Made by a program: the position numbers and the translations under genes
NCBI RefSeq assembly: GCF_900088535.1
Contig: NZ_LT578417.1
Span: 1,984,001-2,048,000, forward strand
Reading direction: 5' to 3'
Length of the DNA: 64,000 nt
DNA from: Cyanobium sp. NIES-981
GTDB taxonomy: Bacteria > Cyanobacteriota > Cyanobacteriia > PCC-6307 > Cyanobiaceae
Part shown: piece by piece, positions 18,349-52,632 of the stretch
Position numbering within the stretch: position 1 is the first letter of the stretch
How the letters are laid out: each line of letters begins with the position of its first letter
Notes under the pieces: model-generated
The model's input: only the letters and a program-made list of their open reading frames with translations
What the model was told of the DNA's origin: nothing
Databases searched by the model: none

Positions 18349-20538
18349 ATGCCGAACCCAGGCCCCGCCGGCCATCTTGTGCTCGCCGGTGGAGGCCATA
18401 CCCATGCCCTGCTGCTGTACCGCTTGGCGATGGGCCGGGGCCGGCGCCCCCGCCCGGGCGAGGTGAGTCTGGTGAGCCGCCACAGCACGGCCCTCTACTC
18501 CGGCATGGTGCCGGGCCTGGTGGCCGGGCTCTACGGCGAGCACGAGGCCGCCATCGACCTGCGGCAGCTCTGCCTGCGCGCCGGTGTGGGATTCATCCGG
18601 GCGGAGATCGTGGGGCTCGATGCCGGGAAGCGCACGCTGCTGCTGGAGGGGAGGCCGTCCCTGCACTGGGACTGGCTGAGCCTGGATGTGGGATCGGTCA
18701 CCGCCACCCCCGACCCTCCGGCCGGGGCGCCCCAGGCCCTGGCCGTGAAGCCCCTCGAACCCTTCCTGGCCTGGGCAGAGCAGCTCGACGGCGCCTCCCT
18801 GCGCGGGGCTCCCGTCCGGATCCGGGGGGGTGGCGCCGCGGCGGTGGAACTGGCCCTGGCCCTGCGCCGCCGCGCTGTGGCGGTGAGCCTTCTGCTGCGG
18901 GGCGAGCGGCTGCACCTGGGCTCGACCGCCGCCAACCGCGCCGGTGAATCCCTGCTCCAGGCCGCCGGGGTGGAGGTGCACCGCGGGGTGCGCGGCGACG
19001 AACGGGCCGATCTGGCCTGCACCGGCAGCCGCGCCCCCGCCTGGCTGGCGGCCGCCGGGTTGCCCGCTGATCCACGGGGCCGTGTTCTCACCGAGACGAG
19101 CCTGCAGGTGCGCGGGCATCCCCAGCTGTTCGCCTGCGGCGACTGCGGCGTGATCGCCGAGGCTCCCCGTCCCCCTTCCGGCGTCTGGGCGGTGCGGGCC
19201 GCGCCCACCCTCGCCGTCAACCTGGAGCGCTGCCTGGAGGCCGGTCCGGCGGGGGTGCCCCGCCGGCTGCTCCCCTGGCGGCCGCAGCGGTGGGCGCTGC
19301 AGCTGCTGGGCGATGCCGGCACGGGCAGCGGGGCTCCCGGCCCCCCACGGGCGATCGCCCTGTGGGGCCCGCTGGCTCTGGGACCCAGCCGGCTGCTGTG
19401 GCGCTGGAAAGACCACATCGACCGGCGCTTCATGCGGCGCTTCCAGCCCGGCGCCGCAATGGCCGCAGCCCAGCGGCCCGCTGCGGGAGGCGCTGGGGCA
19501 GGCGGCGGTGGGGCGGGCGGCCGCCCGATGGCCTGCCGGGGCTGCGCCGCCAAGCTGCCCGCCAGCCCCCTGCTTGCGGCGCTGAGCGCCAGCGGCCAGA
19601 GCGCCGGCGCCGAGGACGCCGCCCTGGTGGGTCCGATGGAGGGCGGCGTCCTGCTGCTGCAGAGCGTGGATGGCTTTCCCGCCCTGGTGGACGATCCCTG
19701 GCTCAATGCCCGCCTCACCGCCCTGCACGCCTGCAGCGACCTGTGGGCCAGCGGCGCCCGGCTGCACAGCGCCCTGGCGGTCGTCACCGTGCCCGAGGCG
19801 GCGGCGGCGCTGCAGCAGGACCTGCTGCACCAGACCCTGGCCGGGATCCGCTCGGTGCTGGACGCCCACGGCGCCCCGCTGCTCGGGGGCCACACGCTGG
19901 AAGGCCGGGATGGTGGTGGCCTGGTGGTGACCCTCAGCGTCAACGGGGTGGTGGCACCGCAGCAGCACTGGCCGAAGGGCCCGCTGCGGCCGGGGGACGC
20001 CCTGCTGCTCAGCCGGCCGCTGGGCACGGGGGTGCTGTTCGCCGCGGCCATGGCCGCGGCGGCGGAAGCCCGGTGGCTCGATCAGGCCCTCGCCCAGATG
20101 CAGCAGAGCCAGGCGCCGCTGGTGCCCCTGCTGCAGCGGCACGGCTGCACGGCCTGCACCGACGTGACGGGCTTCGGGCTGCTCGGCCACCTGGGCGAGA
20201 TGGTCGCCGCGAGCTCCCCAGGGCTCGAGGTTGAACTCGATGCGGCCGCCATTCCCGCCCTGCCCGGAGCACTGCGGCTGCTGGCCGCTGGCCACGCCAG
20301 CAGCCTGGCCCCCGCCAATGCCGCGGCCCTGGCCCTGCTGGAAGGACCGATCCGGCTGGCGGGCACGGCGGCCAGCCCGCTTCCGGGTCTGTTGATCGAC
20401 CCGCAGACCTGCGGCCCCCTGCTGGCTGCGGTGCCTGCCGCGGCCGCCCCCGCGGCCCTGTCCAGCCTGCACCGGGCCGGCTTCACCAGGGCCGCCCTGG
20501 TGGCACGGGTGCGGGCCGGGGAGGGGCTGGAAGAATGA
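18349..20538 (+). CDS. selD: Selenide, water dikinase fused to N-terminal FAD/NAD(P)H dehydrogenase domain
   Basis: SelD makes selenophosphate from selenide and ATP. The 729-aa protein has an N-terminal pyridine-nucleotide-disulfide-oxidoreductase-like domain (about 8-370; LVLAGGGHTHALLL near residue 10, RGGGAAAVELALAL and FACGDCGVI). A Gly-rich linker follows, then the SelD domain from about residue 393. Cys398 and Lys401 (GCAAK) match the catalytic Cys-x2-Lys pair of known SelD; the residue is Cys, not Sec. The fusion is known in cyanobacteria and may couple reductive selenium supply to activation. It is 29 bp after the pentapeptide gene, and kdsD starts on its stop (ATGA). Confidence 0.92.
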   Translation: MPNPGPAGHLVLAGGGHTHALLLYRLAMGRGRRPRPGEVSLVSRHSTALYSGMVPGLVAGLYGEHEAAIDLRQLCLRAGVGFIRAEIVGLDAGKRTLLLEGRPSLHWDWLSLDVGSVTATPDPPAGAPQALAVKPLEPFLAWAEQLDGASLRGAPVRIRGGGAAAVELALALRRRAVAVSLLLRGERLHLGSTAANRAGESLLQAAGVEVHRGVRGDERADLACTGSRAPAWLAAAGLPADPRGRVLTETSLQVRGHPQLFACGDCGVIAEAPRPPSGVWAVRAAPTLAVNLERCLEAGPAGVPRRLLPWRPQRWALQLLGDAGTGSGAPGPPRAIALWGPLALGPSRLLWRWKDHIDRRFMRRFQPGAAMAAAQRPAAGGAGAGGGGAGGRPMACRGCAAKLPASPLLAALSASGQSAGAEDAALVGPMEGGVLLLQSVDGFPALVDDPWLNARLTALHACSDLWASGARLHSALAVVTVPEAAAALQQDLLHQTLAGIRSVLDAHGAPLLGGHTLEGRDGGGLVVTLSVNGVVAPQQHWPKGPLRPGDALLLSRPLGTGVLFAAAMAAAAEARWLDQALAQMQQSQAPLVPLLQRHGCTACTDVTGFGLLGHLGEMVAASSPGLEVELDAAAIPALPGALRLLAAGHASSLAPANAAALALLEGPIRLAGTAASPLPGLLIDPQTCGPLLAAVPAAAAPAALSSLHRAGFTRAALVARVRAGEGLEE

Positions 20539-45304: not shown

Positions 45305-45403
45305 GCCCGGAACGCCGCCGCAGGGCTGTTGACGTGGACCCCGGGAATTGGTCCAGGGTGAATGAGAGTCCTCAGCCGGCCAGACTGGGCCGGGGACTTC
45401 ACC

Positions 45404-45682
45404 ATGAAACGCACCAGGCACACAGCGGAGCAGATCATCCGCAAGCTCAAGACCGCCGACCAGCTGATTGCCCAGGGCAAGACCGTCGCCGATGTCTGCC
45501 GCGTCATCGAGGTGACACAGCCGACCTATCACCGCTGGAAGCAGCAGTACGGCGGGATGCAGGCCGAGGAGGCCCGCCGGCTGACGCAGCTGGAGAAGGA
45601 GAACGCCCGGCTCAAGAAGTTGTTGGCAGAAGCCGAGTTGGAGAAGGCGATGCTCAAGGACCTTGCGGAGGGAAACTTCTGA
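45404..45682 (+). CDS. IS3-family transposase OrfA
   Basis: HTH protein of 92 aa. It starts [16 protein letters not shown] and has the helix-turn-helix [21 protein letters not shown], then a leucine-zipper-like coil ([25 protein letters not shown]) typical of IS3 OrfA. An upstream in-frame ATG at 45362 would add 14 residues. A slippery GGGAAAC ends just before its stop, allowing OrfAB fusion by -1 frameshift. Confidence 0.95.
45670..45676 (+). other. Candidate -1 ribosomal frameshift site GGGAAAC
   Basis: The heptamer reads G GGA AAC in the orfA frame (X XXY YYZ), two codons before the orfA stop. orfB lies in the -1 frame with no good AUG nearby. Slippage would give an OrfAB transposase of about 371 aa. 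Confidence 0.65.
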
Positions 45683-46518
45683 GCCCGGAACGCCGTCGCA
45701 GGGCCGTCACGGTCCTGCAGGAGCGTTACCGGGCATCAGAGCGCCAGGCCTGCCGTGTTGTGGGGCAGCACCGCAGCACCCAGCGCCATTGCGGGAAGGT
45801 CGTCGACCTGGAGGAGACCAAGCTTCGGCACCGCCTGAGGGAGATTGCAGCTGAGCACATCCGCTGGGGCCGCCGCATGGCCTACCGCCTGCTGCGTCGG
45901 GAGGGCTGGACCGTGAACCACAAGCGGGTGCAACGGCTCTGGCGGGAGGAGGGGCTGCAGCGGCCCACTCCCAGGAAGCGGAAGCGGGCACGGCCCGCCG
46001 ACGGCTCGGTGAGGCGTCACCGGGCCCAGCATCCCCACCAGGTGTGGGCCATGGATTTCCAGTTCGATGCCACCGCCGATGGCCGCAGACTCAAGTTCCT
46101 GAACGTGATCGACGAGCACAGCCGCCTCTGCCTGGCGATCCGGGTGGGCAGGCGGTGCAAGGCCAAAGACGTGGTGACTGTGCTGGAGGAACTCACCAGC
46201 CTCTACCCGGCGCCAGCGTTCATCCGATCGGACAACGGCCCTGAGTTCATTGCCCAGGCTCTACGGGACTGGTGTGAGACCAGTACCACCACCAGCACGG
46301 CCTACATCGAGCCAGGATCCCCGTGGGAGAACGGTTTTGCCGAGTCGTTCAACGGCCGGTTCCGGGATGAGTTCCTCAACACCGAGTTGTTCACCACAGC
46401 CCCGGAGGCTCAGATCCTGGCCGATCGCTGGCGATGGGAGTACAACACGCTCAGGCCACACTCGGCCCTCCAAGGGCGTACGCCCATGGAGGCAGCTCAA
46501 CAAGGAGCTGCAGCATGA
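45679..46518 (+). CDS. IS3-family transposase OrfB (DDE integrase core)
   Basis: Catalytic part of the transposase, about 279 aa counted from the CTG at 45679 that overlaps the orfA stop. The HTH_21-like segment is [25 protein letters not shown]. The rve-type DDE core has Asp in VWAMDFQFD, Asp in IRSDNGPEF and Glu in [27 protein letters not shown] is near the end. Expression probably needs frameshifting from orfA. Part of it (46000-46274) is identical to the outer copy. Confidence 0.93.
46000..46274 (+). repeat. 275-bp tract identical to 46866-47140 (inner IS copy)
   Basis: Base-by-base reading shows no difference from the outer copy over 275 bp, whereas flanking parts of the two orfB genes differ at many, mainly synonymous, sites. 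This suggests gene conversion. Confidence 0.9.
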
Positions 46519-46573
46519 CCATGACCACCCACTCTCATAAGCCCTGGACCGATAAAGGGGGTCACGTCACTGT

Positions 46574-47381
46574 CACGGTCTTGCAGGAGCGTTACCGGGC
46601 TTCTGAACGCCTCGTCTGCCGGGTGGTGGGCCAGCACCGCAGCACCCAGCGCCAGGGCGGCAAGGTCATCGACCTGGAGGAGGCCAAACTCCGCCATCGC
46701 CTCCGCGAAATCGCAGCGGAGCACATCCGCTGGGGCCGCCGGATGGCCTACCGGCTGCTCAGGCGGGAGGGCTGGACCGTCAATCACAAGCGCATGCAAC
46801 GACTCTGGCGGGAGGAAGGCCTGCAGCGGCCGACTCCCAGAAACCGAAAGCGGGCACGGCCGGCAGACGGCTCGGTGAGGCGTCACCGGGCCCAGCATCC
46901 CCACCAGGTGTGGGCCATGGATTTCCAGTTCGATGCCACCGCCGATGGCCGCAGACTCAAGTTCCTGAACGTGATCGACGAGCACAGCCGCCTCTGCCTG
47001 GCGATCCGGGTGGGCAGGCGGTGCAAGGCCAAAGACGTGGTGACTGTGCTGGAGGAACTCACCAGCCTCTACCCGGCGCCAGCGTTCATCCGATCGGACA
47101 ACGGCCCTGAGTTCATTGCCCAGGCTCTACGGGACTGGTGCGAGGCCAGTGGCACCGCCACGGCGTACATCGAGCTGGGTTCACCAAGGGAGAACGGCTT
47201 TGCCGAGTCGTTCAACGACCGCTTCCGCGATGAGTTCCTCAACACGGAGCTGTTCACCACAGCTCCGTAGGCGCAGATCCTGGCCGATCGCTAGCGCTGG
47301 GAGTACAACACGCTCAGGCCGCACTCGGCCCTCCAGGGGCTGACGCCCCTGGAGGCAGTTCAACAGGGAGCTGCCGCATGA
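46574..47381 (+). pseudogene. 3' part of orfB from the outer IS3-family element
   Basis: Continues the outer orfB whose first 29 nt lie at 45301-45329. Rejoined after removing the inner IS, it reads in frame from CTG AGC CCG GAA through to a TGA at 47379-47381. Two amber codons interrupt it: TAG at 47268-47270, where the inner copy has GAG, and TAG at 47292-47294, where it has TGG. The DDE residues are still present, but the C-terminal 37 codons are cut off. Confidence 0.93.
46866..47140 (+). repeat. 275-bp tract identical to 46000-46274 (outer IS copy)
   Basis: Second member of the identical pair inside orfB; sequence divergence resumes immediately on both sides. Confidence 0.9.
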
Positions 47382-47448: not shown

Positions 47449-48945
47449 ATGACTCCCAAGCGCCCTTGCGTTTTCGGAATTAATATTAGTGGAACTCATT
47501 TACTGTTTATGGTTAGGACACCGTTTCGAGCTGGTGCGAGGGTAAGGGTTACGCAGGGAGACGAGACCACTAACCATTCTGGGTTCCCCGGAATGATTGC
47601 ATACGACCTAGTAGCATCAGGAGATACAACAATTACCAGCGCTACCGATGGGGTTGTGCTCTTTGCCGGGCTCAATGGATCAGAGACTTCTGGATATGGG
47701 TATACAGTAGTAATTCGACATAGCACAGGTGTCGATATTTATGGTCATCTACTAAAAAATACATTCAGAGTCGCAACAGGACAATCAGTAAGCGCAGGTC
47801 AAGCGCTAGGTCTTATGGGTAGCTCAGGGAACTCAACAGCAGCTCATTTACACTTTGAACGAAGACAGGGTTCAGTAAGTGTACGACAGACTAGTCAGTT
47901 GAACAACACGTGGACAATATCAGGAGGCACTTCCGCTAGAATTGACTTTACAGATGACCTTTCTATTGGCACCTTTAAGGGGGAAACATGGACATCTACC
48001 AATTCAGGCAGCAACTGGAATGTGGACCCCGTTCTTTTCAGCCCTGTTGCCGATATTTCGAAAGTCAATGGAGTGAGTGGTCAGAGTGAGGTGATTTTCA
48101 GGCCGGGGAATGGAGATGTTCGCGCATTTCTAGCTAATTCATCGGGACTGGCGTTCCTTTACCACAAGATTGGATCTACTGGAACCGAGCAAAAGCTTAT
48201 TGGCTCTGGCAATATCTCAGGATCTACCCAGTCGAACGACGAACTGATTTTTCGGACGCCGCAGAGTGAGATTTACGGATTTAGACTTGGCGAGGATGGT
48301 GTAGCAACTCAATGGTATCGCGTTGGAGGGGTTGGCTCAGATCAGCAAGTTCAAGGAATTGGGGACATCACAGGTGATGGCAAAGATGAGATTATATTCC
48401 GGTCTAGAGGCTCCATTGGAGCGTTTCACACGGACATGAATGGCGTTGCGACTACATTTAGAAATGTTGGGTCTGTCGGAATGGACAGACAAGTGATTGG
48501 GGTTGGCGATATAACAGGAGACGGTAAAGATGAAATTATTTTTGGCGGATTAGACGGAAATATTGGAGCATTTAACACTAGCTCATCCGGCGTCGCCCTT
48601 AACTATTTTTCAGTTGGCTGGGCAGATCCAAGCATGCGAGTCATAGGCCCTGCCGATATTAATGGCGACAATAGAGATGAAATTATCTTTAGGGCAAACA
48701 ACGGGGACGTCGGCGCCTTCAGGATCAACAGCTCAGGCGTTGCGGTGCAATATTATAAGGTCGGCTGGGCAGATCCAACTCACAAACTCATCGGCTTTGG
48801 AAATGTGAATGTAAATTCGCCAGGGGAAGAAATCCTATTTCGCAGTCCAAATGGTGATTTAAATGCCTTTTTTATGAATAGTAGCGGGGTTGCTAGTTCA
48901 TGGAACAAACTTGGATGGGCAGATCCCGGCGTGCCCACAATGTGA
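47449..48945 (+). CDS. M23 peptidase domain fused to FG-GAP/VCBS-like propeller repeats
   Basis: Protein of 498 aa. The LytM/M23 domain (about 25-180) has His43 and Asp53 (NHSGFPGMIAYDL), YGHLL, and His133-x-His135 (AAHLHFER), matching the zinc site of peptidoglycan-cleaving endopeptidases. Six repeats of about 50 residues follow (about 200-498), each with a G-x-GDITGDGKDEIIFR-type Asp-rich loop and SGVA, as in calcium-binding beta-propellers. Composition is near 48% GC against roughly 70% around it, and codon use differs, suggesting transfer. No signal peptide is seen, and the start lies 13 bp from the IS scar, so an upstream exported start may have been lost. Confidence 0.85.
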   Translation: MTPKRPCVFGINISGTHLLFMVRTPFRAGARVRVTQGDETTNHSGFPGMIAYDLVASGDTTITSATDGVVLFAGLNGSETSGYGYTVVIRHSTGVDIYGHLLKNTFRVATGQSVSAGQALGLMGSSGNSTAAHLHFERRQGSVSVRQTSQLNNTWTISGGTSARIDFTDDLSIGTFKGETWTSTNSGSNWNVDPVLFSPVADISKVNGVSGQSEVIFRPGNGDVRAFLANSSGLAFLYHKIGSTGTEQKLIGSGNISGSTQSNDELIFRTPQSEIYGFRLGEDGVATQWYRVGGVGSDQQVQGIGDITGDGKDEIIFRSRGSIGAFHTDMNGVATTFRNVGSVGMDRQVIGVGDITGDGKDEIIFGGLDGNIGAFNTSSSGVALNYFSVGWADPSMRVIGPADINGDNRDEIIFRANNGDVGAFRINSSGVAVQYYKVGWADPTHKLIGFGNVNVNSPGEEILFRSPNGDLNAFFMNSSGVASSWNKLGWADPGVPTM

Positions 48946-49418
48946 CTTACTGGCCAACAAACCCCTATGGTGGACAAGCCACCACCAAACACTCTTTCTT
49001 TGCTTCTCCAGCTCATTACCAACCACTCAGGGGTTGCGTTGGCATGGGCAGTCGAAGCAAGACCAACATGCCATGTCTCCCATAGGCAGGCAGGAAAACC
49101 TGCCTGTCCATCAACCCTGGCTCTGGCTATGTATCGCTTAGTGCAAAGCCTAATCGGGCTCAAGAACTCTTTGTCCTGCTAACCAATATAGGGATCTCGC
49201 ATAGGACAGAAGCTCCCCGCCAGCCATGCGCTGGTTAACCCAGACGCCGCCCAGGAAAAAGCAACTCTTGGCCATCGCCACAGAAGTCCAGCGTCCCCTC
49301 AGAACAACAGACAACGGTCATGAGGTGAACGTCTGATAACTTGTGTGTATGGAACGTTGACATCTTGGCGGGGCTGTTCAGGCTTCAGGTATTCAGTTTC
49401 ATACCTTCATGGGGCAGC
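48946..49418. other. 473-bp intergenic region with hairpins
   Basis: No gene could be supported. A perfect hairpin with 8-bp arms and an AAAA loop lies at 49087-49106 (CAGGCAGG/CCTGCCTG), without a following T-run. A smaller one is at 48969-48983 (GGTGG/CCACC), followed by a weak T-rich stretch, and may act as terminator for the M23 gene. Confidence 0.4.
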
Positions 49419-49925
49419 ATGATGGCAGAACAACAGCAGGATCCAGGCGCAGTAACGCAGCCGGCTGAGTCCCACTCCGACATGGGGGATTCTTCGCTCC
49501 CAGGCCCTGGACGCTTTTACTGTGGATTGATTGAAAGACCCACACGGGTCTTTGACCCGGGCGTATCCGCTGAGCGTGTTCGCCTCATCAATCTGTTCGG
49601 CAACAAGTGGGTGAGCGGAACGGTGCTTCGCTATTACTTTTTCGACCGGAACACCGACGGCCAGAACGTGCTGCTCTCTGATGGCACCAGTGAATGGCGA
49701 AGCTGGGTGGGTGCCGAAGAGCAGAAGGCCGTGGTGCGCCGCGGCTTCGAAGCCTGGAAGACGGTGGGGATCGGCATCGAGTTTCAGGAAGTGAGTGAAC
49801 GCGAGGAGGCAGAGATTCGCATTGGTTTCATGCGTGGAGACGGTGCCTGGTCTTGGCTGGGCCGGGACATCCTCGAGCATGGACCGAATGAGCGCACGAT
49901 GAACTTCGGCTGGGATCTGACTAGG

Positions 49926-50971
49926 TGTGTAGTCCCACCACGTTGTTCAGCTGACGATTGGGTGTGAGGTCGCCAGGGTCGGGGTGTCACCGCCCATCCC
50001 AAGACCTCACACCCCATGCATAGCCACCCCAATGCCCGACTGACGCCGATCAGTCGGGAACGCCTGATTCGTCGGCACCTCAATGAGGGCGTGCCGCTCA
50101 AGGCCCTTGCGGCACAAGCCGGGATCAGCCTGCGCAGCGCCTACAAGTGGCTGGCGCGTTTCCGTGATGGCGGCGTAACGGCACTGGCGGATCGACGGAG
50201 TGTTCGCCGCACCCAGCGGCGGACGCTCGATCCGCAGCAACTGCAGCAGGCTGTGGATCTACGGCACCAGCGCTGCACTCTCCGGCGCATCGCCAGGGCC
50301 GTCAAGGCGCCCCTCTCGACCGTCGGACGTGTGATGAATGCCCTGGGGCTGGGACGGCTCAGAAATCTTGAACCCAAGGTTCCAGTTCGCCGCTACCAGT
50401 GGGAGCGGCCTGGCGACATGATCCATGTCGACACCAAACAGCTGGCCAGGTTTGAGCGGGTCGGTCACCGGATCACCGGTGACCGTCGTCAAGGCTCTTC
50501 CCGAGGCGCCGGCTACGAGAAGGTGCACGTCGCCATCGACGACGCCACCCGCCTGGCGTATGTGGAGGTGCTGGCCGACGAGCAGAGGGCAACGACTGTT
50601 GGATTCCTGGCCCGTGCAGTCGGTTGGTTCTCGGAGCAGGGGATCACCTGCCGGAGGATCCTGTCGGATAACGGCTCCGCCTACCGCTCAGGGGATTGGC
50701 GAAAAGCCTGCCGGGCATTGGATCTGAAACCCATCCGCACCAAGCCCTATACGCCGCAAACCAACGGCAAGGCCGAGCGGTTTATCAAAACGATCCTGGC
50801 GGAATGGGCCTACGTGATCGCCTACCAGACATCAGAGGAACGCAACCGCTGGCTACGTCGCTATCTGGCCATCTATAACGGCAACAGGTGCCACATGGCT
50901 CTCGGTGGCCTCACGCCTCAGCAGTCCCTCCAGCGATTGCTGATCGCTGAATGACCTGGTGAGAAAACACA
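49926..50971 (+). mobile_element. IS481-family insertion sequence
   Basis: It is 1046 bp, with imperfect inverted ends TGTGTAGTCCCACCA (left) and a right end that reads TGTGTTTTCTCACCA on the other strand. It is flanked by a 6-bp target duplication ACTAGG at 49920-49925 and 50972-50977. One intact transposase gene fills it. It split a zinc protease gene eight codons before the zinc-binding motif. Confidence 0.93.
50016..50954 (+). CDS. IS481-family transposase
   Basis: Transposase of 312 aa with an N-terminal helix-turn-helix (about 15-60; GVPLKALAAQAGISLRSAYKWLARF) and an rve-type DDE core. The catalytic residues lie in MIHVDTKQL, RILSDNGSAY and TNGKAERFIKT. The C-terminus has YNGNRCHMALGGLTPQQSLQ, typical of IS481. 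Full-length and without interruption, so the element may be active. Confidence 0.95.
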   Translation: MHSHPNARLTPISRERLIRRHLNEGVPLKALAAQAGISLRSAYKWLARFRDGGVTALADRRSVRRTQRRTLDPQQLQQAVDLRHQRCTLRRIARAVKAPLSTVGRVMNALGLGRLRNLEPKVPVRRYQWERPGDMIHVDTKQLARFERVGHRITGDRRQGSSRGAGYEKVHVAIDDATRLAYVEVLADEQRATTVGFLARAVGWFSEQGITCRRILSDNGSAYRSGDWRKACRALDLKPIRTKPYTPQTNGKAERFIKTILAEWAYVIAYQTSEERNRWLRRYLAIYNGNRCHMALGGLTPQQSLQRLLIAE

Positions 50972-51756
50972 ACTAGGCCGGGTGAAATCGACACCGCGAT
51001 CCATGAGATCGGCCACACCCTTGGCTTTCCGCACGAACACCAGAATCCAAAGGCAGGAATTGAATGGAACGAAGAAGCCGTCTACGCCGCCCTGGCCCAA
51101 CCTCCGAATGGCTGGGATCGCCAGACGACATTCTGGAACATCATCCGCAAACTCTCCCCCAATGAAGTGGAGGGCACCACGTGGGATCCAGACTCCGTGA
51201 TGCACTATCCATTCGGGCCGGGGCTCATCAGGAAGCCGGAGCAGTATGCCAGCGGTTTGCAGCCGGCAGGAGGCCTCTCGGCCAAAGACAATGCCTGGGT
51301 CAGGTCTCTGTACCCACCCGCGCAGCAGGAGGAGGAGACGTTACGCCCCTCGCAATCTGTACTGCTCCATATTGCAGCCGGTGAGCAGCGCCACTTCAGG
51401 GTGAGTTCAAACGAGTCTCGCTATTACCAGTTCCAGACCTTTGGCACCTCAGACACCGTGATGGTGTTGTTCGAGGAAGATCATGGGCAGCTCCGCTACC
51501 GCATAGGAGCCGATGACAGCGGGGAGGATCTCAATGCTTCCTTCCGGTACAAGCTGATCCGGGGCAGAAACTACGTGCTCAGAGTTCGCCTCTACTACGC
51601 CGACAGACCAGGAGAAACAGCCGTGATGATGTGGTAACCCGTGTGATCCACTGTGATATGGCCTGCTGGACCATGGAGCAGACGCATGGGGAGGAGCAGC
51701 CATCAAGGGCCTCAGCAGCCTCATTCACCTGAAATCGACATTGGAGGGAAGCCACG

Positions 51757-52632
51757 ATGGGCAGCAGGAAGCTTGAACTCATTCGTGAGGAGAAACTCCA
51801 TAAGCTGCTGCCCGGCAAGAACCCACGGAGCAGACTTGAAGCTAGTGGGGTTTATGCGATCAACGAATCGACCTGCTATGTGATCTTTGACAACCTCAAC
51901 GAAGTGGCCCTGATTGACACTTCATTGAAAAGCAAGAGCCAGAATCGCATCATCCCTGTTCTTAACGTGGGCACAGGCTTTGAGGACATCACCTATGACC
52001 CACACAAGGAAATCTTTTATCTCATCATTGAAGCCCTGAAGGATGCCAACGGTGATTTCCATGGGCTTGCAGGGGAGTACAAGCGCGACCTCACATTCTG
52101 CAGCTGCAGGCTGCTGGATGTCGCCTTCGCCAAGAAGAACAAGGGCTTCGAAGGGGTGGAGCACCTGTGGCGCGATGGCAACGAATACCTTGTGGGCCTG
52201 TGGGAGGACGCGTTGAATCAGGACGATCAACGCCAAGGCACGGGCCTGCTGCATCTCTTCCTGAAGGCTGACGACGGCGCCTGGACAAAAGAATTTGCCA
52301 TTGAATTACCTTCAACAGCGCAATTCAAGGATTACGCTGCCATTGCCAAGCGTGGCAATCAGGTTACCGTGCTCTCCCAGTCGTCGCGAAGGATCTGGAT
52401 CGGAAAGCTGAACGAAGCCGCAGACGGCTTTGCTGCTGACGCGGGCATAGTCTATCGTTTTCCCTCAAAGCACTATGCCAACGTTGAAGGGGTGTCCTGG
52501 CTGAGCGACAACGAACTTGTCATGGTGTCCGATCGACGCAAGAACGATCACAACAAGAAAGACCAGAGCAAGGGCGACGCATCAAAGGATCAGTCGATCC
52601 ACATTTTCCGCATCCCAGCCGATCATGCTTAG
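51757..52632 (+). CDS. Propeller-like protein, possibly SdiA-regulated/phytase-like
   Basis: Protein of 291 aa with repeated beta-strand-like blocks (SGVYAINESTCYVIFDNLNEVALID, GFEDITYDPHKEIFYLIIEA, GFEGVEHLWRDGNEYLVGLWE, NVEGVSWLSDNELVMVSDR). The FED(I)TYD and FEGVE segments resemble SdiA-regulated and esterase-like phytase propellers, in which such acidic loops bind calcium. There is no signal peptide. Function is unknown. Its composition is lower in GC than the core genes. It lies 119 bp after the interrupted protease gene. Confidence 0.7.
   Translation: MGSRKLELIREEKLHKLLPGKNPRSRLEASGVYAINESTCYVIFDNLNEVALIDTSLKSKSQNRIIPVLNVGTGFEDITYDPHKEIFYLIIEALKDANGDFHGLAGEYKRDLTFCSCRLLDVAFAKKNKGFEGVEHLWRDGNEYLVGLWEDALNQDDQRQGTGLLHLFLKADDGAWTKEFAIELPSTAQFKDYAAIAKRGNQVTVLSQSSRRIWIGKLNEAADGFAADAGIVYRFPSKHYANVEGVSWLSDNELVMVSDRRKNDHNKKDQSKGDASKDQSIHIFRIPADHA

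Follow-up and report, generated by a model that had tools for sequence, protein, structure and literature searches.

An IS481-family insertion within a predicted AbsR1/myroilysin-like metzincin gene of Cyanobium sp. NIES-981

We are confident that an intact, probably horizontally acquired metzincin gene of Cyanobium sp. NIES-981 was entered and inactivated by an IS481-family insertion sequence that has recently multiplied in this genome. The window analyzed is a stretch of 64,000 nucleotides, whose positions are used throughout and whose relevant features are collected in Table 1; the genome comprises 3,021,545 bp in one contig. The course of events that we favor would begin with an ancestor of NIES-981, which probably acquired the gene horizontally. 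The gene product would have been a zinc metzincin of the type represented by SCO6992/AbsR1 (ZnMc MMP-like 3, cd04327), in which a short N-terminal segment with a single invariant cysteine precedes a catalytic domain resembling that of myroilysin and a PPC-like domain at the C-terminus. The recently multiplied IS481-family element would have entered the intact gene at a CTAG site (ACTAGG), an event that would have duplicated 6 bp and inactivated the gene. IS481-type insertions are common and this one is ordinary, in a gene of modest interest; it appears to be a clean natural knock-out, and it points to the recent activity of an IS481-type element in a small marine Cyanobium. Of broader relevance is the little-studied family to which the gene belongs; one study underlies its annotation as beta-glucuronidase, whereas sequence, zinc motif and predicted fold speak for a metzincin peptidase. 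This conflict of annotation can be tested directly with the intact cyanobacterial homologues and through the invariant cysteine.

Table 1. Coordinates of the interrupted gene, the element and their surroundings in the window
Feature	Position	Strand	Evidence
Low-G+C tract (0.46-0.65 per 500 bp, highest within the IS, vs ~0.70 beyond 53 kb)	47449..52632	.	
5' piece: N-terminal segment and N-terminal lobe of metzincin domain; 169 codons, ending ...NFGWDLTR	49419..49925	+	NF050131, L094
Cysteine codon (GRFYC), the family's only invariant cysteine; proposed cysteine-switch residue	49521..49523	+	18/18 members and window piece
Target-site duplication, left copy ACTAGG	49920..49925	+	sequence
IS481-family insertion sequence	49926..50971	+	1,046 bp; 100% identical full copy elsewhere in genome (L002)
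Read-through tail of 5' piece into the element (CVVPPRCSADDWV, then TGA)	49926..49967	+	ORF 49341..49967
IS481-family transposase, 312 aa, intact frame	50016..50954	+	NF033577; PF13011, PF00665, PF13683
In-element TGA, in frame with 3' piece, cutting it off from upstream translation	50960..50962	+	sequence; stop-to-stop frame from 50963
Target-site duplication, right copy ACTAGG	50972..50977	+	sequence
3' piece: active-site helix, Met-turn, PPC-like C-terminal domain; 219 codons and natural stop TAA	50978..51637	+	NF050131, L094, ORF list
Zinc-binding motif HEIGHTLGFPHE	51002..51037	+	translation; three H and E invariant in 18/18 family members
Met-turn SVMHY	51194..51208	+	translation, alignment

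The element and its copies

The element begins with TGTGTAG and ends with AACACA, and its terminal inverted repeats are imperfect (21 of 31 positions match). The perfect 6-bp duplication ACTAGG abuts both of its ends. The transposase scores 268.8 bits against the NCBIfam model transpos_IS481 (NF033577), above the cut-off of 224, and also matches Pfam LZ_Tnp_IS481. The element thus has the traits of the IS481 family, namely a transposase over the cut-off, inverted TGT...ACA ends, a length of about 1 kb and a 6-bp duplication of the NCTAGN type. It resembles in these respects the IS481-family element ISLxc2, for which a passage of the published account prints NCTAGN as the target (PMC2516522). 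The one departure, a minor one, is that two of the six exact duplications found in this genome are CCTAAC or CCTAAT, and not NCTAGN.

Eight copies of the element are present in NIES-981 at 99.8-100% identity. Four of these are full, including that of the window; one is without its first 5 bp, and three are broken by other insertions. A ninth copy (L007) is full and 82% identical, and four weaker partial matches (68-80% identity; L015, L016 and L017 among them) were excluded from the count. Exact 6-bp flanks surround six of the nine copies (ACTAGG, GCTAGC, GCTAGG, CCTAGG, CCTAAC and CCTAAT, four of which contain CTAG), while the other three comprise one with its left end lost and two with flanks that agree at 5 of 6 bases. 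The duplication abutting both ends in the window, together with identical 6-bp flanks at six of the nine copies, rules out a chance origin of the element and its duplication. The presence of eight near-identical copies at different sites argues for transposition activity in the recent past of NIES-981. The insertion into the gene is itself likely to be recent, as the first-pass annotation had proposed, since sister copies in the genome are identical. Among the 13 genomes of the genus that were scanned, 10 match the element somewhere, and the best full-length match outside NIES-981 is 82% identical.

A repeated element is the kind of sequence that could be misplaced into an intact gene during assembly. 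We give almost no credence to such an artefact, because the window copy carries a duplication of its own that differs from those of the other copies. The NIES-981 assembly is, furthermore, a single PacBio contig from a 20-kb library at ~220x (PMC4966465).

Other copies and traces of the element show features of their own. The identical copy L002 (L002:910-4046; G000:C1:1449272-1450317 and flanks), with a GCTAGC duplication, also splits a long frame, which is open for at least 500 codons on the left and 195 on the right; its left piece contains DEAD/Helicase_C domains, so that the split gene is helicase-like. The three interrupted copies (L006 and L008-L014; G000:C1:799714-804968, 2372382-2374672 and 2756556-2759323), one of them broken three times, show short overlaps of 4-7 bp at the breaks, resembling the duplications made by other elements. 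On a contig of Cyanobium CH-040, 30 bp from the right end of an IS481 element survive as a relic (L019:918-947), 93% identical and followed by CCTAGA. The relic lies ~120 bp upstream of an intact homologue of the interrupted gene and directly behind a gene that we take from its sequence to be msrB-like, indicating that an IS481 relative formerly adjoined the same gene in another Cyanobium. The tetranucleotide CTAG, the core of the target of the element, occurs 27 times in window positions 1-64000, compared to ~63 expected from trinucleotide counts.

The interrupted gene

Only the two outer segments of 49419-51637 belong to the gene, and they constitute one interrupted reading frame. The left flank is open from the ATG at 49419 and the right flank is open to the TAA at 51635-51637. 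The insertion with one duplication amounts to 1,052 bp (2 mod 3), such that the frame is shifted as the sequence stands. Once the element and one ACTAGG are removed, the flanks join in frame as ...NFGWDLTR-PGEIDTAIHEIGH..., in keeping with the earlier statement that this removal restores the frame. The 5' piece matches positions 5-140 of the profile NF050131 (E 1.8e-45) and the 3' piece positions 142-361 (E 4.9e-83). The decisive evidence for a single gene comes from the intact homologue L094 (genome G562, from another cyanobacterial family), a protein of 387 residues to which the two halves align ungapped and end to end; residues 1-168 are 74% identical to the left piece and 169-387 are 82% identical to the right piece, and L094 reads DLTRPGE across the junction. 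The gapless fit led us to reject the two halves as separate genes. With the transposase above its cut-off and ACTAGG on both sides, the same fit bears out the first-pass annotation in its view that an IS481 element splits one gene. That annotation also placed the split correctly at eight codons before the zinc site, as the stretch from the junction to the first zinc histidine comprises eight residues (PGEIDTAI). At the DNA level the window gene is no more than ~76-77% identical to its nearest intact homologue, and we infer the ancestral uninterrupted site from homologues at most 80% identical.

The gene might already have been decaying when the element arrived, so that the insertion hit a pseudogene. 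This has a small probability in our judgment. In its favor, the gene is rare (5 of 400 genomes of its taxonomic family), and one Paenibacillus and two Okeania loci within the protein family look broken or cut. The two window pieces nevertheless keep 79 of the 80 positions conserved in at least 90% of the 18 intact family members, and all 54 of the invariant ones; in a leave-one-out benchmark, each of the 18 members keeps 82% to 100% of the conserved positions. Neither half has a stop, frameshift or indel relative to L094 over the 387 residues. The dN/dS ratios to L094 are 0.10 for the left and 0.07 for the right piece, at a dS of ~1.7 that is saturated. In light of the conserved positions and the low dN/dS, damage beyond the insertion is not apparent, and the earlier claim to this effect stands. 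We favor the insertion of the element into an intact gene.

The reading frame of the 5' piece continues for 13 codons inside the element, up to the TGA at 49965-49967, and lacks the zinc site. The first ATG, GTG or TTG within the 3' piece is at 51167, past the zinc motif. With a 5' piece that lacks the zinc site and a 3' piece that lacks a start codon before it, the insertion looks like a null allele, and we infer loss of function. Searches of the NIES-981 genome revealed no further copy of the gene. That the two pieces still form a working split enzyme is very unlikely; both frames are open up to the element, but the missing start codon before 51167 and the in-frame TGA at 50960-50962 argue against such an enzyme.

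The first-pass annotation went further in suggesting that the insertion may be reversible. A gene made phase-variable by precise excision at a useful rate would be consistent with the perfect duplication and with flanks that join in frame. Precise removal of any insertion flanked by an intact duplication would, however, restore the frame automatically, so that this property gives no indication of excision, and nothing in the window shows that excision occurs. Related elements of the IS3 type move by copying, with the donor copy staying behind, which counts against such a switch. Precise excision that depends on the transposase and is aided by a host protein has been described for IS629, of the IS3 family, in passages of one account (PMC9330008); the literature passages on IS481 and precise excision contain no report of it for an IS481 element. 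We regard the reversible switch as decidedly unlikely and retain the reading of a plain inactivating insertion.

The encoded protein and its family

SCO6992/AbsR1 of Streptomyces coelicolor, the named member of the family, is described in passages of its study as a protein that binds zinc, has no protease activity and displays beta-glucuronidase activity (PMC9705864), and this study alone turned up for cd04327 in the literature searched. The profile built under that name, NF050131 (beta-glucuronidase AbsR1), matches the window gene end to end and far more strongly than does Pfam Astacin. The likeness of SCO6992 to the window gene and its intact homologues lies in the whole-length profile match, in a similar length (359 vs 361-387 residues), and in the C-terminal TAVM-x-W and N-terminal Y-C that can be read from the printed reverse and forward primers of SCO6992 (PMC9705864, in part). 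The difference is one of degree and of reported function. Intact homologues score 354-462 bits against NF050131, all under the equivalog cut-off of 650, and this cut-off is reached in none of 400 genomes of the taxonomic family and in none of 386 of the phylum; beta-glucuronidase activity is reported for SCO6992 only. As no scanned homologue reaches the cut-off (462 bits at best), the reaction of SCO6992 is not transferable to the window gene. The uidA product of E. coli itself is a possible contaminant behind a glucuronidase activity. SCO6992 was produced in E. coli JM109 as a full-length MBP fusion and purified in a buffer that contained EDTA and mercaptoethanol, and the lysate of the empty vector gave no active band, according to the relevant passages (PMC9705864).

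The motifs of the window gene are those of a metzincin. The HEXXHXXGXXH signature followed by glutamate, an astacin trait, is present as HEIGHTLGFPHE, and the SIMHY-type Met-turn, also an astacin trait, takes the form SVMHY. The Pfam Astacin model (gathering threshold 22.5) gives 21.7 for the 3' piece alone and 33.0-38.8 for five intact homologues. The classical astacins (crayfish astacin, meprins, BMP1) share with this family HEXXHXXGXXHE, the S-x-MHY Met-turn and the fold. They differ in the EXXRXDRD motif after the third histidine, given as an astacin trait in a passage of PMC9848320; the motif is absent from the window gene and nearly all of its family, which have HEHQNPKAG instead, and for this reason we do not file the gene with the classical astacins.

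Two intact homologues were modeled with AlphaFold2 (L049, pLDDT 81.8; L046, pLDDT 82.6). The best structural match of both models is mature myroilysin (Z 23.0 over 198 residues at 2.1 Angstrom, and Z 21.7 over 196 residues at 2.2 Angstrom), followed by meprins and other astacins at Z ~15-16, in match lists where the absence of other families carries no meaning. The last 100 residues of the models match collagen-binding domains of collagenase and PPC domains (Z ~13, 91-102 residues). Sequence comparison likewise ranks myroilysin, an M12A enzyme from Myroides, first among the relatives of solved structure (profile E 4e-43), and this enzyme shares HEXXHXXGXXHEHQ with the window family. In contrast to myroilysin, the window family has the extra PPC-like C-terminal domain, and no N-terminal signal peptide is apparent by eye from 49419. 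The product has the sequence and predicted fold of a metzincin peptidase, followed by a tail that resembles PPC domains. The earlier designation as an astacin-like protease holds for the astacin/myroilysin-like fold and the zinc signature; it does not hold for the missing EXXRXDRD, nor does it accord with the SCO6992 account, whose passages report beta-glucuronidase and no protease (PMC9705864). In place of astacin-like protease, we suggest the designation AbsR1/myroilysin-like metzincin, with its activity in dispute.

The N-terminal segment offers a possible resolution of the dispute. Its cysteine is invariant, and no other column of the alignment has cysteine in more than 6 of the 18 members. 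In many members it is followed by x-[LVM]-P, a sequence that resembles the PRCGxPD of the MMP switch. In both models the confidence is low in this N-terminal stretch and climbs above 50 near the invariant cysteine. The low-confidence stretch from about Cys20/Cys10 overlays pro-MMP-9 from residue 100-101 and the myroilysin proenzyme from residue 29; the pro-MMP-9 overlay is presumably some two residues off from the number of the MMP cysteine, and this offset, like the low confidence of the stretch, counts against a switch. The printed forward primer of SCO6992 encodes a cysteine as well, in M-T-A-R-Y-C (PMC9705864, in part). Myroilysin is a cysteine-switch zymogen, described in a passage of PMC9848320 as the one astacin relative with a proven switch, whereas for the window family the switch is only proposed; a pappalysin is also known, from part of PMC6949598, with a short pro-segment and a zinc-binding cysteine. 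The lone invariant N-terminal cysteine suggests, as a hypothesis, a zymogen of the cysteine-switch type, which could explain the negative protease result. We tentatively propose, and consider somewhat doubtful, that the whole SCO6992/AbsR1 family, the window gene included, consists of latent metzincin peptidases in which this cysteine would cap the zinc. The protease-negative SCO6992 would then have been an unactivated zymogen, and the name beta-glucuronidase, which genome annotation is now propagating, would be incomplete or wrong.

Distribution and origin of the gene

The gene is uncommon in picocyanobacteria, as the first-pass annotation had stated. At E<=1e-20, the family profile finds it in 5 of 400 genomes of the taxonomic family (own included, and two only partial) and in 4 of 386 of the phylum (own included). 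With the 3' piece as query, 20 of the 400 match at E<=0.001, mostly by short and weak matches. In the genus, the same query matches in 2 of 13 genomes (own included), leaving 11 of the 12 others without a match. Absence from related genomes had been named beforehand as counting against the interruption of an astacin-like gene. Such absence is largely what we found; it speaks for horizontal acquisition, and not against the insertion.

Two peptide patterns and searches of whole genomes supplied the homologues for a tree of 21 rows (18 of 45 loci, with L094, L095 and the window gene), the loci left out being broken, partial or distant (~32% identity). The window gene pairs with L094 (support 87/79) inside a group with Pontibacter and two Massilia sequences (100/100). 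The copies of Cyanobium CH-040 and CZS48M are elsewhere in the tree, and a single clade of the three is rejected (AU test, p 8e-131). No shared neighbors beyond the gene itself were seen around the homologues in CH-040, CZS48M, G562 and G690. The gene sits in the low-G+C tract together with an upstream M23/FG-GAP gene and a downstream SdiA-regulated-like gene (Pfam), a tract that is probably foreign DNA. The scattered positions in the tree, the low G+C content and the lack of shared neighbors thus point to a horizontal origin, and the simplest reading of this small sample suggests that three picocyanobacteria acquired the gene separately from other bacteria. The alternative, on a tree of 21 rows, is an old paralogy with losses in place of separate acquisitions.

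Frameshifts or truncations seem to affect the homologues L057, L058 and L060, which come from Paenibacillus terrae and from two genomes of Okeania, so that repeated losses of the gene may have taken place, with sequencing errors as the alternative. An operon of the gene with the M23/FG-GAP and SdiA-regulated-like genes was considered and found no support. The M23 peptidase with FG-GAP repeats (47449-48945, 498 aa) has 47% G+C, ~20 points under the genome, and is probably foreign. Two tandem transposase genes of the IS3 type are at 45334-47343, upstream of the low-G+C tract. At 19299-19397 of the window, a tRNA-Gly (ccc) was called at the unusual length of 99 bases.
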